In this document: positions 6,522 to 31,428 of the stretch, piece after piece
How the letters are laid out: every line of letters begins with the position of its first letter
How positions within the stretch are numbered: the stretch's first letter is position 1
DNA from: Halichondria panicea
Taxonomy: Eukaryota > Porifera > Demospongiae > Suberitida > Halichondriidae
Assembly: GCF_963675165.1 (NCBI RefSeq)
Contig: NC_087377.1
Coordinates: 15,620,198 to 15,684,197 of the forward strand
Length of the DNA stretch: 64,000 bases
Direction of reading: 5' to 3'
The notes under the pieces: model-generated
The model's database searches: none
What the model was told of the DNA's origin: nothing
What the model saw: the letters and a program-made list of their open reading frames with translations, nothing else
Position numbers and translations under genes: made by a program

Positions 6522-9500
6522 CTAATTAGCACTTGTAGAGAAGAAATCAACAGTTTGAATAATATTATAACTAATTGCTGTCAGTCCTCCGGCTACAATG
6601 ACCTCTCCACTAGGAAGTACTGAGCATGTGCAGTTGTATCGTGCAGTAGGCAGGTCTCCCACTTTCACCCACCTCCTGGTGTCAGGCTGGTAGAGGTGGA
6701 TCGATGAACTTGGGTTGACTCTGTCGTCCAGTCCACCAACGGCTAATAGTGACCTCCCAATACTGAGAGGAGCTGACCAGAAGAGTGGTGCTTCCTGTAA
6801 GGTCTGCCAGAGAGTGGGTGTGTCCAGGTTCGAATGGGCCTTTGCAACGAGTTCAGTGAGGTCGACGTGGTACACTGTCTTGGTTGCACTCAGAGTGTGA
6901 TCGTATCCTCCCATTAGGTAGAGGGTGTTTCCTATGAGAGTCGATTTCAGTGATGATCGTGGGTTAGGTAGTGACTGAGCAATGTACCATCTTCTTGATG
7001 CCACGTCCAACACCTCCACAGAGGAGGTACGTTCTTTATCATCATCCCCACCAGCTACAATGATGCGGTTGTTAAAGGAGACAGCTGTTGAGGAAGAACG
7101 AGCAATGTTCATTGGTGGGTACGGGTGAGTCCATTCCCCTGATTCAAACACTGCAAGCTGATTGGTGCGTTTTTTGTTTCTTGGATTATTTCCTCCCACC
7201 AACACTAGTCGATTAGCGAGTGATGTCATAGCGAAGTACTTGGCAGTGTACTCTGGTAGTTTGGTCCATTGATCTTGCTCGAGCTTCATCACTGTACACC
7301 TGTCACGATCATTGACTGCAAACCCTCCACCAACATACACCGTGTCACCGATAACAACACTCTGTACCGAGTCACCCATCTTGATTGGCATGTCTTTTCC
7401 TCTTCTCCATTTCAGAGTGAGTGGAGGTCTCAACTCTCTGGGAGGGGGACCCTGAATAATGAATGAGTGTAATTAGGATAGTGTCTACTAACAAGCGAGT
7501 GTTACTTGTAGCAATAATTGCATGCACACTAAATCACTTTCTCTAATTAGCTTAAGAGGCCACGCCCACCAGTCTAATAGAATGTACAGTACGATTATAA
7601 GAGATCAAAGCTTCTACTATAGCTCTGCAATAATTTAATGGTGCATTTTGTCTCACCAGTCTCTGCTGTTGAATGATGGCGTCTCTCCTGACCAGCTCAG
7701 CACCTTTGTGCCCAATCTGCTCCCTGTGTGCCTGTACAAGGGAACGTTGGTGGAAATCTAAAACACAGACGTGAATATCATTAGTGAAAATTCTACAACA
7801 GAACGAGAAACAAGCAACAATTTACGCTAAGGAAGTACATAGTTATAGGCACACTCAAACGGATGTGTATAGTTACGGCTTAACACATGAGACAGCATCC
7901 ATGCATGTTAACCCTTTAAACGCCACGGGCCACGATCGTGGCCCACAATAAGTGACTTTTTTTGTGAAATTCTAATTCTGCGATACTTAGGAAGTAGCTA
8001 GAAGTACGCACATCCCTGTATAGAGGAAGAGCTGTAGAATCACGTGCAATTTAGTCTAGAAATTTCCAAGCCACGTTGCTATGTTAAAATTTCATTAGCA
8101 TCTTACCGCACAAAGTTTATAGCTATGGCTAGGTTGTTTACTTGTGCCGATGTGCTTGAACAGCTTGAGGACAGCAATGGAGATGTCTCCTCTGTTGATG
8201 ACAGTGCCTATGAAGGAGAGGGAATAGTAGGATACCGCCCAAAGGCTACGAGCTTTATGCCAGACACTGATGAACTGTCTGGGACTGAGGAGATGGACCT
8301 AGACGCTAGCGCTATGGACCAGGACGGTGAAAGATCAGGAGAGGGCTCACTGTGTGACTCTGGCAAGTAGTATAGTATAGCTAGAATATCAGTAGTAAGT
8401 ATAGTATAGCTAAAATAGAATTAGCAGTAATAAACAGTCTTTATGTGAGCTTGTAAATTTCATAGATCGTTCACCGATATATGTACGTATTGTACTTCAA
8501 ATTGATATATCTTAGCACTGTTACATTCATATAATGTGAAAATCAAGCTTAGTCAAGCCTTTATACCATATTATGATAGGCTGATCCATAAAAAAAAATT
8601 TTTGGATTTTATCTCGCCGCTGGCCGAGTATTTAAAATGATAAAAACGGGTGAGCTTAATAACCGTGATTGTTATGGCAACACATGTTGCACCATTTTAT
8701 TCCTTGTTGTATGGGAATTCTATTGGTATATGGTTGCTAGGCATTTTATTGCTCTGGAAACCCGATAGAGAATTTACAGACATTTCACTTCACTGTTAAT
8801 TAAGAATCCGACGGTTAAAGGGTTAAGGTACAATACTATTGTTGCTGTGGGAATCTCATTATCACACTACATGTACGCACCTTCTTGACTGGTTGAGGGT
8901 CCTTTGACTCCTTCTTTGTTGCTTTCACTGGGTCCGAGCTTGTTGTCAGGTAAGTATCTAAAATCGATACCAACATTAATAGAGGGATATGATTTTTTCG
9001 TTAGGGTTACAGTTAGCTGAAACGTAAACACATAATATACTTATCATTGACTCACAGATGTCCCTGGCAGATGGTCTCCTCCTCATGTCTTCTTGCAAAC
9101 AACTGTCGATGAGCTTCCTCAACCTGTGTGTGTGAGGTATCTGGGCAACATGGAATGATCGATCTTCCACAGATTTGATCGTCTTCAGCTTGCAAACAAT
9201 CTGCATCATAATCGCCCCAAGAGAGAACACATCCAAGCTATTATCGTAATTATCCTTGTCCAATCGAATAGCCTCGAGAGGTAGATACCCCATACGGTGA
9301 CCAATGGCTGTGAGGGTGTGGCTAAGCTTGGAGGGATCGTATAGCTGTGACATGCCAAAGTCGGAAATCTTTGCGACAGGCATTGGTCGTGTAAGCTTCA
9401 GCAAGACGTTATCGCCACAGAGGTCACGGTGGATAATCTGCTTGCTGTGAATGTAGGCCAGACCACAAGCCATGTCTTTGGAGAGGCTAATTTCACATTC

Positions 9501-9871
9501 GCTAGTGAGGGACTCTTCATCAAGGCCGGAGAAATAGGATCTCAGATTGCAATCCATCAGCTCAACAACGAGGATTGTACTCCCTGATTTGGGGTGCTTG
9601 GCAGTCGACAAAAACTGAACAACGTTTGGGTGCTGGAACGACTTGAGAAAATCACTCTCACGATCAATTGCATTGCTAGCTTCTTCGTTTTTGCCGATTG
9701 GAATACTTGCCTGCATCTCCATAGCATCGTGAAGCAGCACTTTGACTGCACATATCTCGCCCCTGTAGCTGCCTTTGAAGACTGCTCCAAATGCACCTTT
9801 ACCAAGTCGTTGGTCTAGGAAAACAGTCAAATCGTCGTTGATATCCTGGTGATTTTGGTCAACTGTAGAAC

Positions 9872-9932
<61 letters not shown>

Positions 9933-10372
9933 ATGTGTGGGGGGATATAATTATTACAGTAGTTAAGCAAGTGAATATTATAGTAGCTAGCTAATAAACT
10001 AAGCATCATGTATGAGATATGCATTCCTGTGCTGAACTAGTGCTTACCCTCTGACTTCACATCAGTAGGATTGCTTGCATCAGTAGACTGTAGATGATCT
10101 TTCTCGATGGTCCTCGCTATGTGAACGTGGCCTACGATAGGACTTGACAAAGCTTTGACAACATCTTCCCAGCTTCTCTCTTCACCTTTCAGCCATTCTT
10201 TCAAACCCTCACGATAGCAATCATCAGGATTGTCTCGCCATTTCGTACCAATACTGTCGATGGTATCCGAGGGTACGTCAAGAATAAGCAAGATGTTTCG
10301 CCACTTAATTCGAGCATCAAACGTGGCGAGGTACAATTTCTTTAGATCTGCTATTGTGAGATAGTCAGACAT
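6522..10372 (-). CDS. Death domain - kinase - kelch protein (gene 2)
   Basis: Five exons with consistent phases: 10372-10048, 9862-9056, 8957-8881, 7731-7657, 7451-6522; 737 residues, no internal stop. Residues 1-95 form a Death domain (W..IL.ILDVP, SWEDVVKAL, HIARTIEKDH). Residues 122-375 form a kinase with GKGAFGAV loop, CAVKVL lysine, HRDLCGDN catalytic loop, DFG and YLPLEA; it looks active and nearest to the TKL/IRAK-RIP style. A short charged coil (AHREQ...RRDAIIQQQR) follows, then six kelch repeats (VYVGGG, LVLVGG, IIVAGG, LYLMGG, LLAVGG, VIVAGG) expected to make a six-bladed propeller. No signal peptide or membrane segment. A cytosolic recognition and signalling role is inferred from the domains. 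Intron 1 is expanded by a GT microsatellite and intron 3 holds a piggyBac-like element. Confidence 0.88.
7912..8822. mobile_element. piggyBac-like element 1 in intron of gene 2
   Basis: 911 bp flanked by TTAA at 7908-7911 and 8823-8826. The ends are inverted (CCCTTTAAACGCC against CCCTTTAACCGTC). The matching intron of gene 3 (near 15023) has the uninterrupted site GCATGTTAAGGTAC, which proves the insertion boundaries. A subterminal perfect palindrome GGGCCACGATCGTGGCCC lies at about 7927-7944. TTAA targets and CCC ends are hallmarks of the piggyBac superfamily. Confidence 0.9.
8125..8370 (+). pseudogene. Acidic N-terminal remnant, probably of a piggyBac transposase
   Basis: An 81-codon frame inside the element, beginning MARLFTCADVLEQLED and rich in Asp, Glu and Ser, followed by stop. 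Acidic N-termini of this kind precede the catalytic core in piggyBac-family proteins. No DDD core follows, so the element is non-autonomous. The assignment rests on position and composition. Confidence 0.45.
9874..9930. repeat. (TG)n microsatellite
   Basis: About 28 TG units inside intron 1 of gene 2 (9863-10047). The same intron is 48 bp in gene 3 and copy 1, so the repeat accounts for part of its growth to 185 bp. Confidence 0.95.
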
Positions 10373-10719
10373 CTTCTGAGTCTCTGTAGAGTGTGGGATA
10401 GAGACATAATTATTAATTTAGCTAGTATTAAAGTATGCATAGCTAGACTAGCTAGCTTGACAAGATCTAAACCATTAATTAACAGTCAACAGTCTGTCTG
10501 CACTCACTGATAATAATCCAGAGGCAATATCTTCATTCATTGAAGTAGAAAAACAATATCTAGCAAGAGTGCTGCATGAATGCACTCCTGGTATTATACA
10601 AATATTTTTGTTGTCAAGACAGATCTACCACATCATGTGACATGATGCTTCCTGAAAAGAAGAAATGTTACAGTCACTTTTGAAGCTCTGAGCAATAAAA
10701 TGGTCAATCTGTGTTTTGT
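10373..10719. promoter_or_regulatory. Divergent intergenic region of gene 2
   Basis: Equivalent in position to 997-1346 and 16433-16826. Carries a CATGTG-type box inside ATCATGTGACATGAT near 10632 in place of CACGTG. No exon seen. Confidence 0.3.
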
Positions 10720-10828
10720 GGAAGCTTTGTCCAGTCCTATTGTGGTCCACAGTGACATAGCCAGGACTATGGAGAGAGACCATGTACAGTCTACTGGTGC
10801 AAGCACTGAGGAAGCCATCGTCGTATAG
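10720..10828 (+). pseudogene. Inverted Death-exon fragment
   Basis: Plus-strand reading ALSSPIVVHSDIARTMERDH matches the end of the Death exon of the minus-strand genes (ALSSPIVGHVHIARTIEKDH). A GTATGAG donor-like site follows. A related piece lies near 26440-26500. These are inverted partial copies of the Death exon next to each kinase gene. Confidence 0.6.
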
Positions 10829-11714
10829 GTATGAGGTAACTAAGTGAGTGACTCTAAACTGCATAGGAAGATGACAACTCTGAGCCTGTGTTAGTGTACA
10901 GTGGCCATGATCCCAGGCCGCACTTGCGAAGGAGGCTGGTGTACAGTAGCCTCTACACAGGCTCTCCTTTTTCTGTTCTTTATCACAATCGTTCAATAAG
11001 ATAAAATACTGTATTATTCGTTCAATGAGATAAAATACGGTATTAATTGGAGGAATAAAGAAAGAAATAGACGTAAAGTTAGGAAAAAGGAGAGCCTGTA
11101 TCGGGAAGTCGCGTGAGGGTAGAAGGGTGGTAGAAGGGTGAAAATGAGCGTGGGCATACTGAGCTAGAGATGTTGGACTGCCCACGCAGAGGTCTACGAC
11201 TAATAAAACTTTGCCTGCAGCAAGCTGGACATGGACTTGGAACTGGAAGTTTGCAAGCACTATAGCTAGCTATACCTTAGGCTTAGCTAGATGATCTACT
11301 AGTCTAGATTGTGTGTTTAGATTCTATCACTATTGTGTCTTTCTACATGCTATAGTAGAATAGCTTAGTCATCATTATCATATAGCAGGTAGCTACTGCC
11401 ACCAGAGCTGGCCACGCTGGTTCTCTGATCTGACTTGCAGCACAGCTTGGTGGTTGTCTCAGTGCAGTGCAGTACAGTACAGTCTTACTCTGAATGCGTG
11501 GGAGAATACCTTACGTCACGATTGTGGGCTACATATCGCCCACGTTCATAAAAATCCTTGTGGATCACGCGATTTCCCAAACCAGGCCTTACTTTTTCTT
11601 AACTGTACGCCCATTTCTTTCCTTGCTGCCTCACTATGTCTTGTTTATGGATGAACAGTGACAACAGCAAGAAAAAGTAAGGCCTGGGAACGAGGCTAGG
11701 TGTACAGTACAGTG
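10829..11714. other. Non-coding stretch
   Basis: No gene supported. The minus-strand frame 10625-11260 has no recognisable domain and overlaps repeat fragments. Two pieces around 11095 and 11680 carry a GCCTGGGAACGAGGCTAGG motif common to other repeats in the window. Confidence 0.4.
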
Positions 11715-12271
11715 CAGGGGCGTAGCTACCATTGTTTCCTGGTTGCCCAGAAACCCCCCCAGGAGCTACTGAGAAAATTGGGCAGGGCTCCCTATAATTG
11801 AAATCATGCAGCCCTGCCCATCTTTTCACACTTGGCTTTGTCTCAGCTAGTTAGTCTCAGCTAGCTACCTCAAACAAAGAAGACCAAGACTTAAGTTCTA
11901 GATCTAGTATCAATCCTGAATGCTCCAGTATTCTCAGACTCAGCTCTAAGCACAACTTTATTCAGGAAGTGTACAAGTTTAGAAAAATCTCAGCCACATG
12001 AAATCTCTCAGGTAAATGGCATTTAATTGTTGCTCAGCTAGACTAGCAATACACAATTGGCACCTGCATGCCTAGTATGTTACGTCTGTAGCTAGCTAGC
12101 TTCTCACAAACATGTAAAAAAGTCATGAACAATAGTCAATAAGCAGTAGGTGTGCCCCAATCAAGAGGGTGTGGTACCGGAAGTGGGCGTGGCCACAAAA
12201 ATTTCGCGGCGCTATTGCGCCACTGATTTTTCTGGAGAAACCCCTGTCTCAAAAGTCTGGCTACGCCCCTG
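11715..12271. mobile_element. Element with CAGGGGCGTAGC ends
   Basis: The left end CAGGGGCGTAGCTA and right end GGCTACGCCCCTG are inverted repeats. The CAG start suggests hAT. The flanks share only CAGTG, so the target duplication is unclear. No coding capacity. Confidence 0.6.
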
Positions 12272-12418
12272 CAGTGTTAGAAATTACTCATTGCCATCAG
12301 TCATTGACCGGACGTTTAATTAGAACGACCATGCATTCCTGCATGTGTCCGGTCAGTATGACCAGGCACAAATGACATTTGACCATTATACAGTAAATAA
12401 AAATTATTTCTAACACTG
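12272..12418. mobile_element. Short MITE abutting the previous element
   Basis: 147 bp with 13-bp inverted ends CAGTGTTAGAAAT. It directly abuts the end of the neighbouring element at 12271, so the two were inserted side by side or one into the flank of the other. Confidence 0.6.
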
Positions 12419-12831
12419 CAGTATGTTGTTACAGTACACTACGCCACTCCAAGTGGTACTCTGGTTTCTGGTCCACCGCCTGCATCAGATTTATTCTTAG
12501 GATGTCTATTTCCTATGCATGATGTGCGTGCTCAATGGTCCATGTGGCACAGAATAGTGTGTTCATGATATTCATTTGCAAAAATTGATTTAATGATTTC
12601 AGGAAACTAGTGTAATGACAAAAGCCACCCTCCCGCATTCAATTAGAGATACTTCAGGACCAGAAACCAGAGTATCACTTGAGTGGCATGAGATGAGTGA
12701 GTGCCTATAATGGTGACAATTCCGAGCTGCTTCTGTTATTCTAATTGAGTGTGTCTGTTTGGTTTGTGCTTTACACTGTGTTGGTGTGAGTGGTGTTTTC
12801 ATATCATTCAATGTCTTCCCCTCTCCTACAG

Positions 12832-13445
12832 TTGAGGAGACAAGAAGAGGCACTGAGAATAGAGGTACAGGTAGCTAGACTATACAGAGTATACAATGGC
12901 TGGAAAAATAATGTAGATTCTCTCATGATCAACTAAAGTGTGTCCTATTACAGTAGATCTAATAGGACACATTGAAAACAACAAATCATGTACTAAGTAA
13001 TTTTTACTTAGTACATGATTTGTTGTTTTCAATGTGCAATTATAATAACGTGCGACCCCCCCCCCACACACAGCTTTAGGCCTACTATGCTGCTCACTTT
13101 AACTGACTCTTACGATCATTCTAGTATTCATAATGTAAGTACGTACATATTGTATACCAGTACATGTGTTGTGTGTGGTGTCCCTTTTATCATAGTTGAG
13201 CCATTTTGCATTTAGCCAGTATAAATTATAGCTACTATTATCATGTGATTTCCTCACCCCTTACTTCCTAAGCCCTCAAACTTCCACTCAGTATGACTAT
13301 GACTGTGTGATTCTTTAACCCCTCACTTCCCGAGCCCCACCCCTCACTGGTCTGTCTCGGAAGAGGAGATAGACTTTGGATTCTGGGAGAAGGCGTCCAC
13401 CCTACCCTCGGACAAGACCCCAACCAAGGACCTGAACTTGTTATG
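12832..13445 (+). pseudogene. Gene X 3' exons, copy 2 (decayed)
   Basis: Holds only the 3' half of the coil exon (TTGAGGAGACAAGAAGAGGC, 12832-12866) and the terminal exon near 13331-13445. The terminal exon has lost its AG acceptor (CTCACTTCCC where other copies have CTCAGTTCCC) and has an extra G in CACTGGTCTG that shifts the frame. A long hairpin lies in the intron. Clearly non-functional. Confidence 0.65.
12969..13035. repeat. Perfect long palindrome
   Basis: Arms of about 31 bp beginning ACATTGAAAACAACAAATC, separated by a few T residues. Sits in the intron of gene X copy 2 and is absent from the other copies. Confidence 0.85.
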
Positions 13446-13644
13446 AGACTGTTAAATATTATTTTCTGGCAATGTAATTATATGTATGTACCACTTCATG
13501 TCATCATAATAACTATAATTATATGCAATAAAATTCTGTTGCAACTTAATTTTCTCAACATGATAAAAAGAACGTTATAAACTCAACATGATATCGTTAT
13601 AATTAACTCATCGCACAATTAAAGAGAAACAATTAACAAAATAA

Positions 13645-16432
13645 CTAATTAGTACTTATAGAGAAGAAATCAACAGTTTGAATAATAGTAAATGGTTTTG
13701 TCTGTCCTCCGGCTACAATGACCTCTCCACTAGGAAGTACTGAGCATGTGCAGCTGTATCGTGCAGTAGGCAGGTCTTCCACTTTCACCCACCTCCTGGT
13801 GTCAGGCTGGTAGAGGTGGATCAATAAACTTAGGTTTTCTCTGTCGTCCCGTCCACCAACGGCTAATAGTGACCTCCCAATACTGAGAGGAGCTGACAAC
13901 ACGAGTGGTGCTTCCTGTAAGGTCTGCCAGAGAGTGGGTGTGTCCAGGTTGGAAAGGGCCTTTGCAATGAGTTCATCGAGGTCGACGTGGTGCACTGTCT
14001 TGGTTGGGCTAGTGTGATCGTACCCTCCCATTAGGTAGAGGGTGTTTCCTATGAGAGTCGATTTAAGTTCTGATCGTGGGTTAGGTAGTGATTGAGCAAT
14101 GTACCATCTTCTTGATGCCACGTCCAACACCTCCACAGAGGAGGTACGTCCTTTATCATCACGCCCACCAGCTACAATGATGTGGTTGCTGAAAGAGACA
14201 GCTGTTGAGAAAATACGAGCAATGTTCATTGGTGGGTACGGGTGAGTCCATTCCCCTGACTCAAACACTGCTAGTTGATTGGTGGGTTTGTTTTTTCTTG
14301 GATCATTTCCTCCCACCAGCACTAGTCGATTAGCGAGTGATGTCATAGCGAACCACTTGGCGGTGTACTCTGGTAGTTTGGTCCATTGATCTTGCTCGAG
14401 CTTCATCACTGCACACCTGTTACGATCATTGTCTGCAATGCCTCCACCAACATACACCGTGTCACCGATAACAACACTCTGTACCGAGTAGCCCATCTTG
14501 ATTGGCATGTCTTTTCCTCTTCTCCATTTCAGAGTGAGTGGAGGTCTCAACTCTCTGGGAGGGGGACCCTGAATAATGAATGAGTGTAATTAGGATAGTG
14601 TCTACTAACAAGCGAGTGTTACTTGTAGCAATAATTGCATGCACACTAAATCACTTTCTCTAATTAGCTTAAGAGGCCACGCCCACCAGTCTAATAGAAT
14701 GTACAGTACGATTATAAGAGATCAAAGTTTCTACTATAGCTCTGTAATAATATAATGGTGCATTTTGTCTCACCTGTCTCTGCTGTTGAATGATGGCGTC
14801 TCTCCTGACCAGCTCAGGATCTTTGAGCTTAACCTGTTCCCTGTGTGCCTGTACAGGGGAACGTTGGTGGAATCTTTCACACACGTGAATATCATTAATG
14901 AAAATTCTACAACAGAACGAGAACAAACAACAAATTTCCGCTAAAGGAAGTACATAATTATAGGCACACTCAAACGGATGTATAGTTACGGCTTAACACA
15001 TGAGACAGCATCCATGCATGTTAAGGTACAATACTATTGTTGCTGTGGGAATCTCATTCACACACTACATGTACGCACCTTCTTGACTGGTTGAGTGTCC
15101 TTTGACTCCCTCTTTGTTGCCTCCACTGAACCAGAACCTCTCGTCAAGTAAGCATCTAGAAAATCGATACCAACATTAATAAAGACGAATATGATTTTTT
15201 TTGTTAGGGTTATAGTTATAGGGTTAGCGGAATTGTAAACACATAATTATAATTAACTCACAGACGTCCCTGGCAGATGGTCTCCTCCTCATGTCTTCTT
15301 GCAAACAACTGTTGATAAGCTCCCTCAACCTGTGTGTGTGAGGGATCTGGGCAACATGGAATGATCGATCCTTGGCTGATTTAATGGTCTCTAGCTTGCA
15401 AACAATCTGTGTCACAATCACCCCATAGGAAAACACATCCAGGCTACTATCGTATTTCTCCTCTTCCAATCGAATAGCCTCAAGAGGTAAATACCCCATC
15501 CGGTGACTAATGGCTGTGAGGGTGTGGCTAAGCATGGAGGGATCGTATAGCCGTGACATGCCAAAGTCGGATATCTTTGCGACAGGCACTGGTCGTGTAA
15601 GCTTCAGTAAGACGTTATCACCACAGAGGTCACGATGGATAATCTTCTTGCTGTGAATGTAGGCCAGACCACAAGCAATGTCTTTGGAGAGGCTAATTTC
15701 ACATTCGCTAGTGAGGGACTCTTCATCAAGGCCGGAAAAATAAGATCTCAGATTGCAATCCATCAGCTCAACAACGAGGATTGTACTCCCTGATTTGGGG
15801 TGCTTGGCAGTCGACAAATACAGAACAACATTTGGGTGCTGGAACGACTTGAGAAAATCACTCTCACGATCAATTGCATCACTAGCTTCTTCGTTTTTGC
15901 CGACTGAAATACTTGCCTGCATCTCCATAGCATCGTGAAGCAGCACTTTGACTGCACATATCTCGCCCCTGTAGCTGCCTTTGAAGACTGCTCCAAATGC
16001 ACCTTTACCGAGACGCTCGTCTAGGAAAACAGTTAAATCATCGTTGATCTTCTGGCGATCTTGGTCAACTGTAGAATGTTGTGTGGGGTAAAATATTATG
16101 CCGAATTGGTGCTTACCTTGTAATTTAGGGTTGTTTGGACCAGTAGACTGTAGATGATCTCTTTCGATGGTCTGGGCTATGTGAACTTCACTCACGATGG
16201 GACTAGACAATGCCTCCACCATCTCTTTCCAGCTCTTCCCTCCTTCATTAAGCCATTTAATCAAACCCTCACGATAGCAGTCATCAGGATTGTTGCTCCA
16301 TTCTTTCCCGATGCTGTGGATTGTAGCCTGGGGTACGTCAAGAATAAGCAAGATGTTTCGCCACTTAATTCGAGCATCAAACGTAACGAGATACAATCTC
16401 TTTAGATCTGCTATTGTGAGATAGTCGGACAT
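13645..16432 (-). CDS. Death domain - kinase - kelch protein (gene 3)
   Basis: Same five-exon layout as gene 2: 16432-16117, 16068-15262, 15155-15079, 14848-14774, 14568-13645; 732 residues, all phases consistent, no stops. The Death domain, kinase motifs (GKGAFG, AVK, HRDLCGDN, DFG, LPLEA) and six GG-marked kelch repeats are intact. Intron 1 is 48 bp, in frame and without stop, so unspliced RNA could also be read through. This is the cleanest copy and serves here as the reference for the family. The kelch part differs from gene 2 mainly at the residues after each GG and at one position before each blade. Transcribed away from a CACGTG-bearing intergenic region. Function unknown; the domain order suggests ligand sensing by the propeller and signalling by Death and kinase. 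Confidence 0.9.
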
Positions 16433-16826
16433 CTTCTCTGTAGAATAATTATGGTTATAATTTGTCAGAATTTAATATGTGATAAAATAATATTTGGTGT
16501 GTGCAAACTAAATCATGTACATACAGTAAAAACAGTACTGTCTGCACTTACTGATAATAATCCAGAGGCTACAGTATCTTCACAGCTTGATACCAGGCAA
16601 GATACAGAAATACAGGACAACAGCTAGCTCAGCTACAACGAGACCCGCCCTCTTTCTCTGCAGAATAAACAAATAGCTGTCACGTGCGATGACAAATAAC
16701 ATTGCTAAACCACGTGGCTGGTCTTTCACTTCCATACTAAGCTAGAGAAAAGAAGAAATTGTGCAGTCAGTTTTGAAGCTCTGAGCAAGTGGTCAAACTA
16801 TTTGTCTGTATTGGTGGAGGCTGAAG
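16433..16826. promoter_or_regulatory. Divergent intergenic region with two E-boxes
   Basis: CACGTG occurs at 16681-16686 and 16711-16716 between the gene 3 start and the plus-strand exon at 16827. Copy 1 keeps the first box, while its second is mutated to CACATG. Confidence 0.4.
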
Positions 16827-16873
16827 ACATGAGTCCATGGACAGGGACTACTGAGGAACCTTCATCAAGAACA
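16827..16873 (+). pseudogene. Copied first exon (MSPWTGTTEEPSS)
   Basis: Identical reading to 1347-1393 with a GTAATG donor, but no USF-like exons follow. An orphan copy of the first exon carried along with the duplicated unit. Confidence 0.55.
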
Positions 16874-19473: not shown

Positions 19474-19559
19474 GACACTATTTGCAAGGTAAGCAGTTTT
19501 TGTGAGACGGAAGTGCTGACATTAATTAATCTTCTGTTTTCTAGGGGAAGGCGTGGGTG

Positions 19560-20129: not shown

Positions 20130-20682
20130 TCGTACCCCCGGGTTTGAAGTGTCCATGGACTACTGGACCGTGTCATGCAGCTGCTGGAGGTGTCCTTCAC
20201 CAAAGATGGCAGTAGATACTTCCTCAAGGCAGCTGAAGGTGAGGGTTGCATAAGCACAGCTGTGTATGTGTGTTAGGGACTTGTGAAGGAACTACTGTAT
20301 ATGCATTCAGTCCAGTTTGTTGGGAATTAGTGGCCGTGAGGTTTTTGAAGTGTATGTGTTGAATCCACTGGAAGATTATTTTGTCATAAAATTTATTCCT
20401 ACAACTACACTTGCTCACTGCCCACACTTCTGCACTGCTTGTGTTTACCGCTCCCTCCCCTGCACACACACTCCACAGACTCTACCTAGTTCCCGGGCCG
20501 TTGTGCAGAGGTGTGTGTACGTGGGAAGGTGATTGGGAAACTGGGCATGCTCTATCCTGGTGTGTCTGTTGTGCAGCTCTAGTGTGTGTGAGACTGGGAG
20601 GTGTGTCTGGTGCAGCTGTTCTCACGGCCTCCTCCAACCAGTACCTGCCCTCCGTACTCTCCAGGGAGAACCTATCTCCTCA
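20130..20682 (+). pseudogene. Two unidentified exon-like fragments
   Basis: 20130-20241 can read LDRVMQLLEVSFTKDGSRYF and ends AAE before a GTGAGG donor; 20590-20682 can read LGGVSGAAVLTASSNQYLP and ends before GTTAGT. Both look like real coding sequence by composition and splice signals. I do not recognise the parent gene, and no continuous gene can be built from them. Confidence 0.35.
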
Positions 20683-21489
20683 GGTTAGTGTGTGTTCATC
20701 ATGACCTCCTTGACAGTATGTATACCATGCCAGGTGTGTGTTTAGGGTCAATACTGCAAGGTCATGTACTATACATAATTATGTCATGTACATATAATTA
20801 TAGCCTGGATCCCAGGGTAGGCCGGTGAACGAGGCTAGTACATATAATCCTTTTGTTTGTAGTTAGGGTGCTTTAAATTTAGTAACCATTAAAGATCTAA
20901 CATACTCTTCTTGAGGGGAGGGGTAGTTAAACACATTATTTTAAACAGCCATAACTTTATTATCGTTGATCCAATGTCAAAATTTATATTATTTGCTTAA
21001 AGCTTAGAAACAGACTTTCAAATAATGTGCTTCAATCCAAAATTTCTTTGGTGTAATTTTTCGGCCTTGGACCATCAGCTATTATCCTTGGTTGTGTCCA
21101 AATTAGTTTTGTAGCTCAAAATAATATGAACTTTGATGGCGACGTTTGAAAGGTATATCTTATATACCATTCGATTCCTTGTTAAAAAACGCTTCTATCT
21201 ATATATGCTGTAGAGCTGGTAAGCTCCACATTTTGTGATCTTGTGTGTGTGCATTGGGTGCATGATGTGAGATCAATTTCAACATGGTATGGAGTGTTGT
21301 TAACATGGAGGGTGACATTGTATGAGTGTAATAACGTGCGACCCCCCCCCCACACACCTTTAGGCCTACTATGCTGCTCACTTTAACTGACTCTTACGAT
21401 TATTCTAGTATTCATAATGTAAGTACGTACATATTGTATACCAGTACATGTGTTGTGTGTGGTGTCCCTATAGTTGAGTGTGAGTGTGA

Positions 21490-21910
21490 GAGGCCATATA
21501 TATAAGGAGGACATACGTGTGTCGAGGCTGGAGGTGGCCCGTGTGCTGAGGGGAGAGAAATGAGTACAAAGAGAAGTACCTCTCACTATTGGAGCAGATT
21601 AGGTAAAGGGTCATCTTGTAGTGTTTGTAAAGCGGTCATCATAACTTTAATAACTGCTAATACATACTAACACTGTGTATCCAGAGGAGGTTCGACAGGT
21701 GCAGTGCAGCTCAAGCAATTAGTCTCTGATTACACGCTTGCATGAGCGGATAATTAGTGTTCATGCAATCAAAGGCTAATACATACTAACACTGTGTATT
21801 TGTACTAACAATGTTAGTTGATTAATAATAATGTTTCTCTGTTGCACAGGATGAGTGCTGACTCGGCTCTGTTTAAGTCCAAGAGCAAGAAATCAAAGTG
21901 GCTCGACTAG
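21490..21910 (+). pseudogene. Gene Y tail, copy 1
   Basis: One exon-like piece ends NEYKEKYLSLLEQIR before GTAAAG. The terminal exon 21850-21910 reads MSADSALFKSKSKKSKWLD and stops. A one-base shift lies inside the first piece (GGAGAGAAATGAG). A second copy is at 28203-28834. The family is unknown; the C-terminus is a basic, lysine-rich tail. Confidence 0.45.
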
Positions 21911-22376
21911 TGAGTTGTGTCACGTCAGTTAGTGTGTAGAGTTGTAGTGAAGCTTTTCTTATTCTAGTCACTCTATATAGAGATTATTATAGAATACAGT
22001 CAGGTTAATTAATGGACTCCATAGCGGACCTATGCCACCTCTAGAGTACAGCTCTACTGTTTCACTGTATATCTTGAAGTAAGATTATAATCTAGTGCAA
22101 TAAGATACTATTAATGTTATGATTCTACTAAAACTCGTTCTCAAAAGTTTCAGCCTATAGTGTAGTTTTATTTTATTGCTCCAGTTACTTGCTGCTTAGC
22201 CAGATCATATATACTATTGTATAACACTCCTCTGGTTTCTATAGATCTTTATTATTTATGTCAACAGCCGAGGGTAGCACTTCAGTGCTCTAGTTCTAAT
22301 TGTAGATTGACTGATCGATTTGTCTTCTGTACTATTGTTTGATTTTTCCACCCCTCATCTTTTCCGGCCCCCAGTT

Positions 22377-22802
22377 ATGCGGTCATTTTTCAGCCCGGCC
22401 AAGTGTTGAGGAGACAAGAAGAGGCACTGAGAATGGAGGTAGAGGTACAGAGTACATTAGCTGGAAAATGCATTTGTGTCATACTCTGTAGAGTCCCTTA
22501 AAGTCATTCAAGGTCAGCTATAGTGTGTCCTATTTGAAGGTGTGCAATGTACAATCATGTACGACCCCCCCCCCCACACACACACACCTTTAGGCCTACT
22601 ATGCTGCTAAGAAAGAGAGGGGCCTCACGTAAACTGGTCCCTCAGTGTGACTATAATTATGACCATTTGACTCTTTAACCCCTCAGTTCCCAAGCCCCAC
22701 CCCAACTGTCTGACTCGGAAGAGGAGATAGACTTTGGATTCTGGGAGAAGTCGTCCACCCTACCCTCGGACAAGACACCAACCAAGGACCTGAACTTGTT
22801 AT
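22377..22802 (+). pseudogene. Gene X 3' exons, copy 3
   Basis: Same coil exon and terminal exon as 5794-6321, ending DLNLL-stop, with only a few substitutions. Lies tail-to-tail with the kelch exon of gene 4. Confidence 0.45.
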
Positions 22803-22992
22803 GAGACTGTTAAATATTATTTTGTCTGTTTTTGTACTATTTTCTGGCAATGTAATTATGTATGTACCACTTCATGTCATCATAATAACTATAATTATAT
22901 GCGATAAAATTCTGTTGCAACTTAATTTTCTCAACATGATAAATTATCGTTATAAACTCATCTGCACAACAGAGAAATGATAACAAAAATAA

Positions 22993-25900
22993 CTAATTAG
23001 CACTTATAGAGAAAAAATCAACAGTTTGAATATAAGTAGAAAATAGTTTTGTCTGTCCTCCGGCTACAATTACCTCTCCACTAGGAAGTACTGAGCATGT
23101 GCAGTTGAGTCGTGCAGTAGGCAGGTCTCCCACTTTCACCCACCTCCTGGTGTCAGACTGGTAGAGATGGATCGATGAACTTGGGTTGAATCCGTCCGCT
23201 CCACCAATGGCTAATAGTGAACTCCCAATACTGAGAGGAGCTGAGAACACGAGTGGTACTTCCTGTAAGGTCTGCCAGAGAGTGGGTGTGTCCAGGTTTG
23301 AAAGGGCCTTTGCAATGAGTTCATTAAGGTCGACGTGGTGCACTGTCTTGGTTTCCCTCCCAGTGTGATCGAACCCACCCATTAGGTAGAGGATGTTTCC
23401 TATGAGAGTCGATTTCAGTGATGATCGTGGGTTAGGTAGTGACTGAGCAATGTACCATCTTCTTGATGCCACGTCCAACACCTCCACAGAGGAGGTATAT
23501 CCTTTATCATCATACCCACCAGCTACAATGATGTGGTTGTTAAAGGAGACAGCTGTTGAGGAATTACGAGCAATGTTCATTGGTGGGTACGGGTGAGTCC
23601 ATTCCCCTGACTCAAACACTGCAAGCTGATTGGTGCGTGTGTTATTTCTTGGATCACTTCCTCCAACCAGCACTAATCGATTAGCGAGTGATGTCATAGC
23701 GAACCACTCGGCAGTGTACTCTGGTAGTTTGGTCCATTGATCTTGCTCAAGCTTCATCACTGTACACGCGTCACGATAATTGACTGCATAGCCTCCACCA
23801 ACATACACCGTGTCACCGATAACAACACTCTGTACCGTGGTACCCATCTTGATTGGCATGTCTTTTCCTCTTCTCCATTTCAGAGTGAGTGGAGGTCTCG
23901 ACTCTCTGGGAGGGGGACCCTGAATAATGAATGAGTGTAATTAGGATAGTGTCTACTAACAAGCGAGTGTTACTTGTAGCAATAATTGCATGCACACTAA
24001 ATCACTTTCTCTAATTAGCTTAAGAGGCCACGCCCACCAGTCTAATAGAATGTACAGTACGATTATAAGAGATCAAAGCTTCTACTATAGCTCTGCAATA
24101 ATATAATGGTGCATTTTGTCTCACCTGTCTCTGCTGTTGAATGATGGCGTCTCTCCTGACCAGCTCAGCATCTTTGTGCTCAATCTGTTCACTGTGAGCC
24201 TGTATAGGGGAACGTTGGTGGAAATCTTAGAATTAAAACACACACGTGAAATCATTAGTGGAAATTCTACAACAGAACGAGACAATTTCCGCTAAAGTAC
24301 ATAATTATAGGCACACTCAAACGGATGTGTCTTAACATGATTTATACAATAGCATCAATTGTTGAGGTATACGACTATTGTTGGAATCTCATCGACACAC
24401 TTAGCTACATGTACGCAAACAAATATCATTATTGTAGTATAATACTAGCGTATAAGAGTGTGTGCATTTGGTGACTACTATAATACCTGTAAGAGAGCGG
24501 CCCTCTCAACTAGAGCACCCTCTCTCTGGGAAATGAGATCAGCGATCCTTGACTCTTGTTCACTGAGTTGTCTGTCCTTGTCAGCAATCATACCATCTTT
24601 GGTGGCAGCATTAGCACGGACAGTATTCAATATCTGTATGAAAAAAGCTTATCAACATGCTAGCTTGTTGAACAAAATAAACTGGTTCTGCTGACCTGTT
24701 GCTGTCTAGCAAGCTGAGTATCTTTGTCCGCTACTTCCTCATCTTTTTGAACAAGTTGCTCATCTTTTTGTGCCAGTAGTGCAACGCTCTGTTCAAGTTG
24801 ATCGTCTTTCTCAGTAAGTTGCTCATCTTTCCTCTCCAGTATCCTGTCCTTCTGGACCACCTCTCTCTGAGAACAGAGTACAGCATGCAGTGTCAGACCC
24901 TTGCACCCACTAGCGCACTGGACTGGACTCACCTGTAGAGCCTCTATCCTCTTCTCCTTTGCCCTGAGGGTCCTGACAGTCTTCACTCGTGCAATGTCCA
25001 GCTGGAGCAGTCCTCCGTCCATCTCCCTCTCCACCTCCTCTAGAGACGAGAGGAGCTCAGCGGTGGTCGGTCTTCTCTCTGGGGTGTTGGCCAGACACTC
25101 CCTCACCAGACCAAACAGGGGGTGCTCACGTCCACGCACCAGACTCCTCTCAAGGAGAGCCGTGTAGGGACCTCGACGCTCAAACTCTGAGCGAGCCAGG
25201 AGGTGGTCTGGGTTGTTGGGGTCGCTGTACGTGGGGGCAAGGAGATCTCCTGGAAACACCTAGTCCAATGACAGGAGTGAAAGAACATGTGAATACTGAC
25301 TGTCATGATTGTTTTTATGTATGTCTGGAGAAAATGAGTGCACGTATATTCACAATCATACACATACAAAATGCATTTGCTGAAGGTCAACAATATTAAA
25401 GGGGGATCTCCCCAACACATACAACCACACTACTTATAAGGTAATTCACTGCATGAATGGTCACCAGGAATCTAACCTATGAATATCATTAACTACACAC
25501 ATACTTGTGTGAGTGCAAACAGTTGTAGCACTCCGAAAGAGAAGACGTCCAGACTGGGTCCGTACACACTGTGACCTCTGTCAGAGAGGGCCTCGGGCGG
25601 CATGTACACCAGTGTCCCAGGAAACCTCGTCAGAGTCCTGGCCAGTCGACCAGGCTCCAGATTCACGATACGAGAGTTACCAAAGTCTGTGATCTTGGCT
25701 CTCAGAGATGCCGTCAGCAGGACGTTCCTGGCAGTGAGGTCACGATGGACCACGGACTCACGATGCAGGTGGAGCAGCCCTCGAGCCACACAGACCAGAA
25801 TGTACTGGGTGACAGAGAGGGGGATGTTGGGGGTGGACTCCAGGAGATCGTCCAGACTTGAGTCCAGCCTCTCCATGATCAGGAGGGGCAGTCGAGAGCC

Positions 25901-26267
25901 AGTCACGAAACACAGCCCAATGAACTGGGTGATGTTGGGGTGACGGATGCGAGCCATGAGTCGACACTCTCGGCGGTAGTTCCCAGCTAGATTGGCCACT
26001 CCACCACGCTCGTCCGTCTCCAGGAGAACCTCGTGGATCTTCTTGGCTGCATACACCTCACCATTGATCATCACCTGTGCATGGAGGCAGTCACACTTGA
26101 ATAGCTAGCAGATACACTAGAGACAGTGCACAGAAACAGAGCATGCAGTGACTGACCTCTTGAACAGAGCCATAGGAGCCAGTTCCTAGAACTCTCTCCT
26201 CTCCAAAGTGCTCCACATTCTCCAGCACAAACTCCCTCAAGTCAGCATCATCTCGCAAAGAAAACAT
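22993..26267 (-). CDS. Kinase - coiled coil - kelch protein (gene 4)
   Basis: Seven exons with consistent phases: 26267-26157, 26074-25505, 25259-24933, 24866-24696, 24633-24487, 24199-24125, 23919-22993; 775 residues. There is no Death domain. The kinase (residues about 18-300) has GTGSYGSV, the AAKK lysine, HRDLTARN, DFGNSR and YMPPEA, with motifs distinct from genes 2 and 3. Exons 3-5 encode a long coiled coil rich in KDEQL/KDRQL heptads. The last two exons, coil AHSEQIEHKDAEL and six kelch repeats, are the same module as in genes 2 and 3. The exon boundary before this module is phase 0 in all three genes, which allows such shuffling. Intact. The GC content of the kinase exons looks higher than that of the kelch exon, consistent with different origins. 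Confidence 0.87.
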
Positions 26268-27222
26268 TGCTAGTAAAGTTAAGTTAAGTTGACTCAGCTA
26301 GCTAGCTTGATAGCTAAATGATACGCCCCTTTTCTTATTCAATCACATGCAAATAACAGCTGAATCAGCAAACCACGTGGTCACCCAGCACCCATGGAAC
26401 ATGGAGCAAGTGGCTAACTATTGTCTCAGTGTTAGGTGGAGGCTTTGTCCAGTACTATAATTTGTAGACCACAGTGACATAGCCAGGACCATGGAGAGAG
26501 ACCATTGCTGAGGAGGTGGGAATGGCAAGTTCCTGGCCAATCAGATGATCCTACATGTACATGACGAAGCTGCTCGTAAAGATGCAAGTCTGATGACAAA
26601 CTCAGGATGATGAGTGAGTGATAGTGTTGTTATTTAATAGCCTGATAGGATATACCTACTGCCAACATTTTCATGTTCACTGTACCCAAGTATTGTATTT
26701 GGATGGTCCGGAAAAACTGTTGTAAACTAGTAAATAGTATGTAGAGGAGGAGCCTACGCACGCGAGGGACTGGCAAACTGCCTATCAGTCACTCGTCTCA
26801 GCTGCAACGAGCATTGCAGCCTATCAGATTGCTCAACGTCATATTAGCTCTGTAATTGTAACCACACTTACACTTCAGGGGATTCAGTACATTCCATAGT
26901 AGCTAAATCTCATAGCAAAATATAACCACATTATCTATAATGATATTCATGTTTGGTAGTGTCATAATTATGATCCATATATTCCGCTGAAACGAGTGAC
27001 TGATAAGCAGTTGGCCAGTCGCTCACACTACGCGCCAGTCTACCTTTTTAATACCCTCGAAATATACCCGCTATATACGGTAGCTTCTTTATAGTGCATA
27101 GTGTGCTTAAATCAATATGAAATTCATGCCCAAATTGTGGAAAATAAGCGTAGACAATATTTCAATAACACGCATAGTTTAGTACATGTATGTGTACGTG
27201 TATTGAGTTTGCAATTCCTCAG
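26268..27222. other. Upstream region of gene 4 and non-coding DNA
   Basis: CACGTG at 26374-26379 in the same relative place as in gene 3. An inverted Death-exon scrap lies near 26440-26500. The rest shows no coding sequence I can support. Confidence 0.4.
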
Positions 27223-27341
27223 GGCCATGTTCAAGCTGAACCCCAATGCAAAGACGTCAAGTTCAAGCTGAATGCCCAAGAGTTCAAACCTCCGAGAGCA
27301 AGCTTCTCTCCAGTGGTCACTGCCTCCTCCACACCTCTCCG
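27223..27341 (+). pseudogene. PAM2-like exon fragment
   Basis: One frame reads FKLNAQEFKPPRASFSP; another, one base off, reads MFKLNPNAK. Both resemble the PABP-binding PAM2 motif (LNxxAxEFxP) in adjacent frames, suggesting a motif pair broken by a frameshift. CTCAG acceptor and CGGTAAATG donor flank it. The parent gene is unknown. Confidence 0.35.
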
Positions 27342-28202
27342 GTAAATGCAATCATATTATAATTGTGAAATAGCTTTTCCCGAATTTCGAATGTCAAAAT
27401 GTGCATACCCCCAGGCCATAATAATCTGTCTTTGAGCTCGTGCATGCATGAACAATCTGCCATGATGATCTTAGTATTATCATTGTACATGTACGGGATT
27501 GATCCCCATCCAGAACTACGAAACTAGCTGGCAAAAAGGACATCTAATTATTATTGCATACTGAGAATGCATTTTCAGTTGGTTGTATAATTGTTGCTTA
27601 GCAGTGGACTTTATAAATGCTCTGTAGTACCCAAAAGGACAACTCCCCTAGAAGTGTCCTACTGGAATCAATATTAGGAGTTTTCACACTTTTTGTGTTT
27701 GGCCAGAGCCATTTGTTTATGCACAAGTCATATTTCTGCCTGACAGGGCCTTTGGGCCGTAGCCTTGGGCCTTGTCTGAAACCATGTTGGAGCCAAAGCT
27801 CCGTTCTGCAAATTGTGATTATGCTTATTTATAATATGCGTTTGTTAATTGTTAGTTCTAATTTGTGGTTTACGAATTTGTGGTTTACGTGCCTGTGTCC
27901 ATGAAGAACTATTTGAACACGTCATAAAATGCAATTCATAGGACAGGAATGTTGCCACCAAACCAGTGCTCTGTTTTAGTACTCCTATAAAGGCTAGAGT
28001 ATTGGTTATTGTACCTGTAGAAACTGGATTATTAGCGCTTACTCGATTATAAGCCCATGCTTAACTGCAAGTTTTTGATTAAGGTCATCTGTATTTCTTC
28101 CATTTCTCTCTATAATTTCATGTCATAATTATTATTGAATTCATGATTTTACTATTTACCCTCATTTCTCTGCACACCCGCCCCCTCACTCACCCCTGCC
28201 AC
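27342..28202. other. Non-coding stretch
   Basis: AT-rich. The plus-strand frame 27617-27904 has no recognisable content. No gene supported. Confidence 0.35.
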
Positions 28203-28834
28203 AGAGACAAGGCGACTATAGAGTCCTCAGCCTCTGCCCTACAAGAGCAAAATAATTCCGTTTCTGCGTGTGTCACCAAACTGGAGGTAAAAGTTTACGT
28301 AAGGACTTTGAGAAGGAGCAGAAAAATGAGAAGTACCTCTCGCTATTAGAGCATACTAGGTAAAGGTCCTGTAATTTACTTACTGTTATTATAACGTGTT
28401 ATGTTAGGTAAGATCTTAGTGCAGCATACTAGGTAAAGGTCATCGTGTAGTGTTTTGTAAAACAGTCATCATAATCCTTAGTTTTACCGTATAGCGGCTC
28501 TTGGGCTATCAGAAATGTTCATGGGTCATGGGTTTTCTAATAATTATTCACGTTTCAATGTTAGGAAACCACACCCATCAATAGCTTTATCCCAGTTTTA
28601 ATGTTCACGTTAGCTGCTCTGCCCTCGAAAAACCCGAAATTTTGCACCTCACCTGCTACGGTACATGCTAACACTGTATATCACTATACAACCACTTGAA
28701 TGCAGATAAAGCACAATCACTCTCTTTATTGCCTCCCAAGAAGTTAAGTAGCTAACTGTTCTCTGTTGCACTGGATGAGTGCTGACTCGGCTCTGTTTAA
28801 GTCCAAGAGCAAGAAATCAAAGTGGCTCGACTAG
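28203..28834 (+). pseudogene. Gene Y exons, copy 2
   Basis: An exon reading RDKATIESSASALQEQNNSV begins at 28203 after an ACAG acceptor. A second piece reads RKDFEKEQKNEKYLSLLEH and ends before GTAAAG at about 28360. The terminal MSADSALFKSKSKKS exon follows at about 28774, but its acceptor AG has become TG (GCACTGG against GCACAGG in copy 1). The copy is therefore probably dead. Confidence 0.45.
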
Positions 28835-29292
28835 TGAGTTGTGTCACGTCAGTTAGTGTGTAGAGTTGTAGTGAAGTTTTTCTTATTCTAGTCACTCTAT
28901 AGAGATTATTATAGAATACAGTCAGGTTAATTAATGGACTCCATAGCGGACCTATGCCACCTCTAGAGTACAGCTATACTGTTTCACTGTATATCTTGAA
29001 GTAAGATTATAATCTAGTGCAATAAGATACTATTAGTGTTATGATTCTACTAAAACTCGTTCTCAAAAGTTTCAGCCTATAGTCTAGTTTTATTTTATTG
29101 CTCCCGTTACTTGCTGCTTAGCCATGCAGATCTATTGTATAACACTCCTCTGGTTTCTATAGATCTTTATTATTTATGTCAACAGCCGAGGGTAGCACTT
29201 CAGTGCTCTAGTTCTAATTGTAGATTGACTGATCGATTTGTCTTCTGTACTATTGTTTGATTTTTCCACCCCTCATCTTTTCCGGCCCACAG

Positions 29293-29724
29293 ATATGCGG
29301 CCATTTTTCAGCCCGGCCAAGTGTTGAGGAGACAAGAAGAGGCACTGAGAATGGAGGTAGAGGTACAGAGTACATTAGCTGGAAAATGCATTTGTGTCAT
29401 ACTTTGTAGAGTCCCTTAAAGTCATTCAAGGTCAGCTATAGTGTGTCCTATTTGAAGGTGTGCAATGTACAATCATGTACGACCCCCCCCCCCCACACAC
29501 ACACACACACACACCTTTAGGCCTACTATGCTGCTAAGAAAGAGAGGGGCCTCACGTAAACTGGCCACTCAGTATGACTATGACCGTGTGACTCTTTAAA
29601 CCCTCAGTTCCCGAGCCCCACCCCTCACTGTCTGACTCGGAAGGGAAGAAAGACTTTGGATTCTGGGAGAAGGCGTTCACCCTACCCTTGAACAAGACCC
29701 CAACCAAGGACCTGAACTTATTAT
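29293..29724 (+). pseudogene. Gene X 3' exons, copy 4
   Basis: Same coil exon and terminal exon as the other copies. The acidic stretch has changed to DSEGKKDFGFWEKAF, and it still ends DLNLL-stop. Tail-to-tail with kelch copy 5. Confidence 0.45.
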
Positions 29725-29919
29725 GAGACTGTTAAATATTATTTTGTTGTTTTTGTACTATTTTCTGGCAATGTAATTATATATGTACCACTTCATGTCA
29801 TCATAATAACTATAGTTATATGTGATAAAATTCTGTTGCAACTTCAACATTATTATAAATGAATATCAATATCATTATAAATTCATCGCACAATTAAAGA
29901 GAAACAATTAACAAAATAA

Positions 29920-31428
29920 CTAATTAGCACTTATAGAGAAGAAATCAACAGTTTGAGTATTGGTAAGTACATCTGTCTGTCCTCCGGCTACAATGACCTC
30001 TTCACTAGGAAGTTCTGAGCATGTGCAGTAGTATCGTGCAGTAGGCAGGTCTCCCACTTTCACCCACCTACTGGTGTCAGGCTGGTAGAGGTGGATCGAT
30101 GAACTTGGGTTGAATCTGTCGTCTCGTCCACCAACGGCTAATAGTGACCTCCCAATACTGAGAGGAGCTGAATACACGAGTGGTACTTTCTGTAAGGTCT
30201 GCCAGAGAGTGGGTGTGTCCATGTTGGAAAGGGCATTTGCAATGAGTTCATCGAGGTCGGCGTGATGCACTGTCTTGGTTGGACTACTCACAGTGTGATC
30301 CCACCCTCCCATTAGGTAGAGGGTGTTTCCTATGAGAGTTGATTTCAGATCTGATCGTGGGTTAGGTAGTGACTGAGCAATGTGCCATCTTCTTGATGCC
30401 ACGTCCAACACCTCCACAGAGGAGATACGTACTTTTTCATTATACCCACCAGCTACAATGATGTGGTTGTTGAAGGAGACAGCTGTTGAGGAATGACGAG
30501 CAATGTTCATTGGTGGGTACGGGTGAGTCCATTCCCCTGATTCAAACACTGCTAGTTGATTGGTGAGTTTGTTGTTTCTTAGATCAAATCCTCCCACCAG
30601 CACTAGTCGATTAGCGAGTGATGTCATAGCGAACCACATGGCAGTGTACTCTGGTAGTTTGGTCCATTGATCTTGCTCGAGCTTCATCACTGTACACCTG
30701 TCACGGTCATTGCCTGCACTACCTCCACCAACATACACCGTGTCACCGATAACAACATTCTGTACCGAGCAGCCCATCTTGATTGGCATGTCTTTTCCTC
30801 TTCTCCATTTCAGAGTGAGTGGAGGTCTCAACTCTCTGGGAGGGGGACCCTGAATAATGAATGAGTGTAATTAGGATAGTGTCTACTAGCAAGCGAGTTT
30901 TACTTGTAGCAATAATTGCATGCACACTAAATCACTTTCTGTAATTAGCTTAAGAGGCCACGCCCACTAGTCTAATAGAATGTACAGTACGATTATAAGA
31001 GATCAAAGCTTCTACTATAGCTCTGCAATAATATAATGGTGCATTTTGTCTCACCTGTCTCTGCTGTTGAATGATGGCGTCTCTCCTGACCAGCTCAGCA
31101 TCTTTGTGCTTAATCTGTTCCCTGTGAGCCTGTACAGGGGAACGTTGGTGGAAATCAAACACAGACGTGAATAACATTAGAGAAAATTCTACAACAAAAC
31201 GAGACAATCTTCACTAAAGGAAGTACATAATTATAGGCACACTCAAACAGATGTGTAGTTACGGCTTAACACATGAGACAGCATCCATGCATGTTAAGGT
31301 ACAATACTATTGTTGCTGTGGGAATCTCATTATCACACTACATGTACGCACCTTCTTGACTGGTTAAGTGTCCTTTGACTCCTTCTTTGTTGCCTCCACT
31401 GGGTCCGAGCTTGTTGTCAGGTCAGCAT
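29920..31428 (-). pseudogene. Kelch gene copy 5, kinase lost
   Basis: Exons 31428-31352, 31129-31055 and 30849-29920 match exons 3-5 of genes 2 and 3. The kelch exon is open with all six GG motifs. Exon 3 carries TAA (31364-31366) where the others have CAA. Upstream, the intron is cut at 31516 by the inverted-repeat element and no kinase or Death exon follows. The kelch part still shows the same pattern of variation as the intact copies, so it was a working paralogue before truncation. Confidence 0.85.

Follow-up and report, generated by a model that had tools for sequence, protein, structure and literature searches.

Loops on one predicted face of a kelch propeller vary between the copies of a large gene family in the sponge Halichondria panicea

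Introduction

Why do several copies of one protein domain keep the same framework and differ from each other at the same places in every repeat? This question is raised by four kelch exons in a stretch of 64,000 nucleotides (nt) from the sponge Halichondria panicea (contig NC_087377.1, positions 15,620,198 to 15,684,197 of the forward strand; hereafter the window). An earlier note, made from the letters of the window, had proposed that these exons encode propellers with a diversifying recognition face, and that together with Death and kinase domains they form a family of variable cytosolic sensors. Our results indicate that selection probably made the copies different on one predicted binding face, and that a repertoire of receptors would be a probable use of such a face. 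Papers are cited here by their PubMed Central (PMC) numbers.

Results

The kelch exons of the window

The four kelch exons were found where the earlier note had placed them, each as one open exon of 307-309 amino acids (aa) on the minus strand; the plus-strand frame of the four ranges is full of stops. They are called W1 to W4 below:

6522..7451, minus strand: kelch exon W1, six blades, 309 aa, open, with hypervariable loops between strands b and c (BC) and strands d and a (DA)
13645..14568, minus strand: kelch exon W2, 307 aa, open
22993..23919, minus strand: kelch exon W3, 308 aa, open
29920..30849, minus strand: kelch exon W4, 309 aa, open, no kinase match upstream

All of them matched Pfam Kelch_1 far above the Pfam cut-offs (E 2.1e-25 to 3.7e-30). 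An AlphaFold2 model built on the four proteins (predicted local distance difference test score, pLDDT, 88.5) gave a six-bladed kelch propeller, and its closest folds in Foldseek and VIA-align were kelch domains, such as those of KLHL12, Keap1, KLHL20, NS1-BP and LZTR1 (VIA-align Z 29-31). In the alignment of the four copies, the residues named in the note were all variable, both those after the GG pair (44, 88, 136, 183 and 241 in W1 numbering) and those before the first strand (27, 71, 119, 167, 224-225 and 272-273). The loop after the fourth GG differed in length as described, and so did the loops near W1 244 and 295. However, two phrases of the note went too far or not far enough. The two positions per blade do vary, but this understated the case, as further BC-loop positions are among the 28 strongest sites given below; and "almost identical" is true of the framework only, since the window copies shared 84-87% of their residues and 91-93% of their nucleotides.

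Variation and selection in the kelch exon

A search of the genome with W1 gave 128 scored matches out of 463 first-look candidates, ranked by their similarity to W1. The aligned set comprised 124 copies, i.e. 120 fetched ones and the four of the window, with four copies on contig C6 left out. Most columns of this alignment were near-invariant and some held 9-16 different residues. The ratio of nonsynonymous to synonymous rates (dN/dS, or omega) was estimated by a grid method of our own, not a published tool, on FastTree trees of 116 distinct sequences and 306 codons. The global omega of the kelch exon was 0.98. The posterior for dN>dS exceeded 0.95 at 46 sites, and in 28 of these the nonsynonymous rate was at least 3; the posterior for dN<dS exceeded 0.9 at 43 sites. 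The strong sites are located as follows:

After GG, in all six blades: 44, 88, 136, 183, 241, 290
In the DA loop, in all six blades: 27, 71-72, 119, 167, 224-225, 273
Further BC-loop positions: 46, 51, 95, 140-142, 188-189, 245, 292-295, 297

All 28 sites were kept with three other trees (made from the other codons, from their 5' half and from their 3' half), which added 7-9 sites, and in simulations, one each at omega 0.5 and 1, none of the 306 sites was called. The expectation that dN/dS would be above 1 at the variable codons was borne out. Entropy at the 28 sites was 1.21, 1.38 and 0.63 bits at codon positions 1, 2 and 3, respectively; a third position that varies less than the other two is expected if selection acts on the amino acid. 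Counts that need no tree gave a ratio of nonsynonymous to synonymous differences (pN/pS) of 2.2-9.2 at the 28 sites in the bins of pairs more than 2% apart and of 0.41-0.68 elsewhere in the exon. For example, it was 9.2 against 0.41 in pairs 2-4% apart, and 2.2 against 0.55 in pairs 10-14% apart. The 124 copies carried 106 distinct combinations of residues at these sites, and distinct combinations differed at a mean of 21.1 of the 28. Four residues, Tyr, Phe, Arg and Trp, were 3.3, 3.2, 2.4 and 2.2 times as frequent there as elsewhere in the exon. The pattern was seen again in a separate cluster on contigs C6 and C28 (15 distinct copies, which belong to the set from which the 28 were picked): of its own 28 most variable sites, 21 were the same.

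The faces of the model were assigned by DSSP and kelch topology, with the loop assignment standing in for burial. Under strict DSSP the BC and DA loops (106 residues) held 25 of the 28 sites (hypergeometric P 3.8e-10), a concentration that speaks against an even spread, and the remaining three (140-142) were placed where strand c of blade 3 begins. The AB and CD loops of the opposite face had none among their 45 residues (BC/DA against AB/CD, Fisher P 7e-5). An initial count of 28 of 28 in the BC and DA loops, for which the loops had been extended by hand into DSSP strands, is superseded by the strict one. The note had also pointed out that ligands are contacted by these loops in Keap1-type propellers, and indeed the substrates of Keap1, KLHL3 and KLHL20 are bound by BC/DA loops (PMC6650413, PMC6720452). 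Provided that the alignment starts without a gap, residue 44 of the model corresponds to Keap1 334 and KLHL20 326, and both Keap1 Tyr334 (PMC6891428) and KLHL20 Trp326 (PMC6720452) are ligand contacts.

The kinase that is encoded upstream of many kelch exons served as a control in 42 genes (40 fetched, W1 and W2), taken from the 66 kelch copies for which a kinase was scored no further than 4 kb upstream. In the kinase the median pS was 0.159 and the median pN 0.056, with a ratio of means of 0.36, and 0 of 282 sites reached 2 bits of entropy. In the kelch exon of the same genes the corresponding values were 0.075, 0.088 and 1.13, with 20 of 307 sites at 2 bits or more. Judged from these counts, the kinase is under purifying selection and the kelch exon as a whole is not. 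On the predicted structure, selection appears to diversify one binding face, with framework and kinase kept alike, which would follow the logic of a receptor repertoire.

Family size and genomic layout

The kelch matches were distributed over the window's contig (C1, 108), C6 (17) and C28 (3). Within 15.48-17.39 Mb of C1 there were 104 of the 128; 54 of these, at 15.48-16.13 Mb, are on the minus strand (median spacing 9.4 kb) and the other 50, at 16.71-17.39 Mb, on the plus strand (median spacing 8.5 kb). The 22 bases taken from the end of the intron before kelch occurred 156 times with at most 2 mismatches, and the backward control 0 times; 90 of the first 100 listed of these 156 sites adjoined a scored kelch match. 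From such counts the genome likely holds about 150 kelch cassettes, of which 128 were seen. No relative turned up in a scan of prokaryote genome contigs. The genome, of 131.46 Mb, also gave 10 exon matches to Wnt, which is not known outside animals and thus indicates an animal; its small size and many NACHT matches would fit a sponge. Open frames of ordinary length were found in 122 of the 124 aligned copies, a share that is biased because the copies were sampled by similarity rank; L001 has a TGA and L065 a long end.

Some kelch exons were identical to each other (L014/L015, L019/L020, L031/L032/L033, L066/L067, L085/L086, L089/L090 and L103/L104), partly as neighbours and partly at distances of up to about 1.5 Mb. 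They may be recent duplications or assembly artefacts.

Recombination and flanking sequences

The silent divergences of kinase and kelch were hardly correlated over the 42 genes (0.13). Furthermore, in a test resembling the pairwise homoplasy index, four-gamete incompatibility between neighbouring sites was below that of all 300 permutations (0 of 300 at or below the observed value). From the low correlation together with the four-gamete clustering it follows that the copies recombine.

Of 116 distinct copies, 75 share the 205-nt intron; among these its diversity was 0.021, and 0.004 in its last 41 nt, compared with 0.050 at fourfold sites of kelch (95% interval of the difference between intron and fourfold sites, 0.013-0.046); conversion or constraint could explain this uniform intron. 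By the criterion used, the other 41 of the 116 are without it. In the 120 nt after the kelch exon, diversity across the family was 0.18-0.36 per 20 nt, and the identity of the four window copies over 200 nt after the exon was mixed, from 79 to 100%. We had considered the kelch exon as an island of diversity between homogenised flanks. This idea was dropped, as the intron is not shared by all copies and the sequence after the exon is more diverse; the silent divergence of the kinase, larger than that of kelch, spoke against it as well. It was also observed that about the last 45 nt of the intron (e.g. 7452-7496) are near-invariant even where the upstream sequence is unrelated (L080, L120), which may mark a strong splice signal or the edge of exchange tracts.

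Gene structures and partner domains

Gene structures were obtained by reading splice sites by eye. Besides the kelch exons, the following features were recognised, all on the minus strand:

1..1011: next copy, with kinase at 1-615 (cut) and Death-like domain at 706-1011; its kelch (L074) lies to the left of the window
7452..7656: intron W1, 205 nt, near-uniform in the sharing copies
7657..7731: linker exon W1, 25 aa, phase 0 on both sides
8881..8957: short linker exon W1, approximate, splice sites by eye
9056..9862: TKL-type (tyrosine kinase-like) kinase exon W1, ending at TCT/GTGAGT with the splice boundary after TCT, end by eye
10048..10372: Death-like domain exon W1 (weak match), start MSDYLT
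14569..14773: intron W2, 205 nt
14774..14848: linker exon W2, 25 aa
15079..15155: linker exon W2, 26 codons, phase 1 to 0, by eye
15262..16432: Death-like domain and TKL-type kinase W2
24125..24199: linker exon W3, 25 aa, phase 0
24487..24633: coil-like exon W3, phase 0, by eye
24660..26297: kinase of another kind, its long tail coil-like, in register with linker and kelch of W3, without a match to Death
31055..31129: linker exon W4, 25 aa, placed by analogy with W1-W3

In W2 the exons follow each other in matching phase, in the order Death-like domain plus kinase, 26-codon linker, 25-codon linker and kelch. W1 is built in the same way except that Death-like domain and kinase are on separate exons. 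In W3 the same linker and kelch stand, in phase, behind the second kind of kinase with its coil-like tail, and W4 has linker and kelch. Because the partners of W3 and W4 differ from those of W1 and W2, the linker-kelch cassette is, as far as exon order and phase tell, modular, and the W3 arrangement is a case of module shuffling.

Ten exons were scanned against Pfam. The six non-kelch ones gave a kinase in three, a weak match to DUF536 and RNase_Y_N in one and no match in two, and BTB was not matched in any of these six. The Death-like domain precedes the kinase, and its profile, made of six sequences, matched FADD weakly (E 0.0026). A single-sequence model of the Death plus kinase exon reached a pLDDT of 31 and was not used. 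The kinase is TKL-like: the best 60 of its 569 solved-structure matches include EGFR, B-raf, CERK1 and CTR1, and IRAK is not among these 60. An in-frame stop inside the kinase domain was found in 0 of 42 genes; seven of the 42 kinase stretches had one, in all seven at the ends of the match and outside the exon.

The search for the kinase family gave 101 scored matches of 1230 candidates. The sequence downstream was read at eight kinase loci for which kelch had not been scored. Three of them hold kelch sequence, which is cut by the end of the piece in L164, has an internal deletion in L165 and a frameshift in L168. L161, L162, L163 and L167 showed no match downstream of the kinase to the queries used. 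At L166 (G000:C6:2569988-2575000, minus strand) two near-identical stretches, Ig-like by eye, replace kelch behind a related kinase; from this locus, the kinase family may carry sensors other than kelch. Elsewhere in the window, at about 35283-35723 on the minus strand, an open reading frame resembles a ParB-like nuclease domain by eye.

Discussion

What could such a family be for? We consider it fairly probable that these genes encode germline-diversified Death-kinase-kelch receptors, the binding face of which has been under selection for the purpose of sensing non-self. The architecture suggests that they are probably cytosolic sensors of this kind. The six-bladed propeller would be the sensor of an intracellular receptor family, and its DA and BC loops would form one binding face, of which selection has given almost every copy its own version. 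Purifying selection holds the framework of the propeller and the kinase alike, by which the members could signal into one common pathway. A ligand bound on the variable face would bring the Death and kinase parts together, or release them, and so start signalling, perhaps with one ligand per copy. The ligands that drive the diversification would be microbial, viral or allogeneic.

However, several observations weigh against this interpretation. The Death and kinase partners named by the earlier note are only partly there: a kinase lies upstream of W1 and W2, but the Death assignment is weak, with Pfam Death found in 2 of 6 members at a best E of 0.0032; W3 carries another kinase and no Death match, and W4 has no kinase match upstream. 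Over the whole family, a kinase was scored no further than 4 kb upstream of kelch in at least 66 of the 128 copies. The kelch copies of L165 and L168 are broken, which would be consistent with birth and death of copies. Among pairs less than 2% apart, pN/pS was 1.26 at the 28 sites (26 changes) compared with 0.72 elsewhere, which is no clear excess. Silent rates, too, were raised at 71-72, 183, 188, 225, 241 and 293. Finally, recombination weakens the tree-based dN/dS, though not the pairwise counts.

Other explanations have to be weighed against non-self sensing, and the main one is allorecognition or another self code, in which each copy binds its own endogenous partner, for allorecognition or as an insulated channel, and the face diversifies to separate the copies. 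The diversity between copies, with most of the 28 sites differing, fits any pressure for distinct faces, and the fungal HNWD propellers, in which the same loops are selected, serve allorecognition (PMC1805685). It can be argued, on the other hand, that insulation alone hardly needs more than 100 copies including broken ones, and we regard this self code as possible and rather unlikely. Still less probable is that the kelch face picks the substrates of the kinase, so that diversification broadens the substrates without any sensing. BTB-Kelch proteins do choose their substrates by these loops (PMC6650413, PMC6720452), and the kinase domain is without internal stop in 42 of 42 genes; but in K13, KEAP1, KLHL2, KLHL3 and KLHL12 the sites of highest conservation lie in the pockets (PMC6650413), which is contrary to the finding here.

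Two explanations would do without selection for different faces, and both seem very improbable to us. Surface loops of redundant copies might drift neutrally under relaxed constraint, since loops are usually more tolerant and broken copies exist. Drift would hardly bring the median pN of the 28 sites (0.478) far above the median pS of the exon (0.085), nor spare the AB and CD loops, and nearly all copies are open and of ordinary length, although similarity rank decided which copies were sampled. Hardest to credit is a hypermutation directed at these codons, of the kind known from bacterial diversity-generating retroelements or from somatic mutation. Diversity at fourfold sites was higher up to 3 codons from the 28 (0.074, n=47) than at 4-8 codons (0.028, n=59), as hypermutation would have it. 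However, silent diversity was 0.055 (n=19) at 9-15 codons and 0.049 (n=9) at 16-40 codons, which is no clean gradient, and within the 28 codons the third position is less variable than positions 1 and 2, which points to selection on the amino acid.

If non-self sensing by these propellers is true, they would be a new recognition scaffold for innate immunity or self/non-self recognition, and more than 100 natural variants on one framework would offer a ready panel. The earlier note called the family undescribed. Searches of open-licence papers turned up no animal for which a hypervariable kelch family is described, and the available part of PMC12909245 mentions kelch 0 times; a "Kelch motif containing gene", which may or may not be related, is among the sponge transcripts changed after microbial patterns (PMC6208332). 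But the principle of diversifying propeller loops is already known from fungal HNWD, and the new part is the kelch version in an animal. For the wider claim, that this is an undescribed class of animal immune receptors with more than 100 cytosolic Death-kinase members, a paratope-like kelch, a linker-kelch cassette behind different kinases and exchange between copies, we see about equal grounds for and against.

IRAK and Pelle have a Death-kinase architecture, and W1 and W2 would be like them if the weakly matched Death-like domain that precedes their TKL-type kinase is a true Death domain; IRAK is not known to carry kelch. Animal NLRs (NOD-like receptors) are large cytosolic receptor families with Death-fold parts. 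Unlike those with LRR sensors, the present family gave no match to NACHT, NB-ARC or LRR in the 10 exons scanned. In the same genome NACHT gave 102 scored matches of 265 candidates, with clusters on contigs C7, C13, C14 and others, which look like an expanded NLR-like repertoire.

The BTB-Kelch proteins (Keap1, KLHL2, KLHL3, KLHL12, KLHL20) share with this family the six-bladed kelch propeller and a binding face, predicted in the family, made of BC and DA loops. They differ in having BTB, in working with Cullin ligases and in a conserved pocket, as opposed to Death-kinase parts and a variable face here. In K13, KEAP1, KLHL2, KLHL3 and KLHL12 the DA and BC loops form the substrate-pocket face, and the 10% most conserved sites cluster there (PMC6650413). 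So far, kelch has been a substrate adaptor with a conserved pocket; in the sponge family the loops that would form that pocket are the most variable part.

The closest parallel in the use of the propeller is the NWD/HNWD family of Podospora anserina (het-d, het-e), which likewise recognises with a propeller, diversifies loops of one face and exchanges sequence between members; positive selection falls there on the d-a loop and the b-c turn of the WD40 repeats (PMC1805685). In the sponge kelch, too, the signs of diversifying selection are in the loops between strands d and a and between strands b and c, on one predicted face. That family is fungal, with NACHT, WD40 and 10 genes, and its repeats are near-identical and exchangeable (PMC1805685), whereas here we have an animal, Death-kinase parts, kelch and more than 100 copies, with blades that within W1 are 24% identical on average and 30% at most. 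Such a convergence of kelch with WD40 propellers of fungi, on two loops that they have in common, would point to a rule by which propellers in general evolve as receptors.

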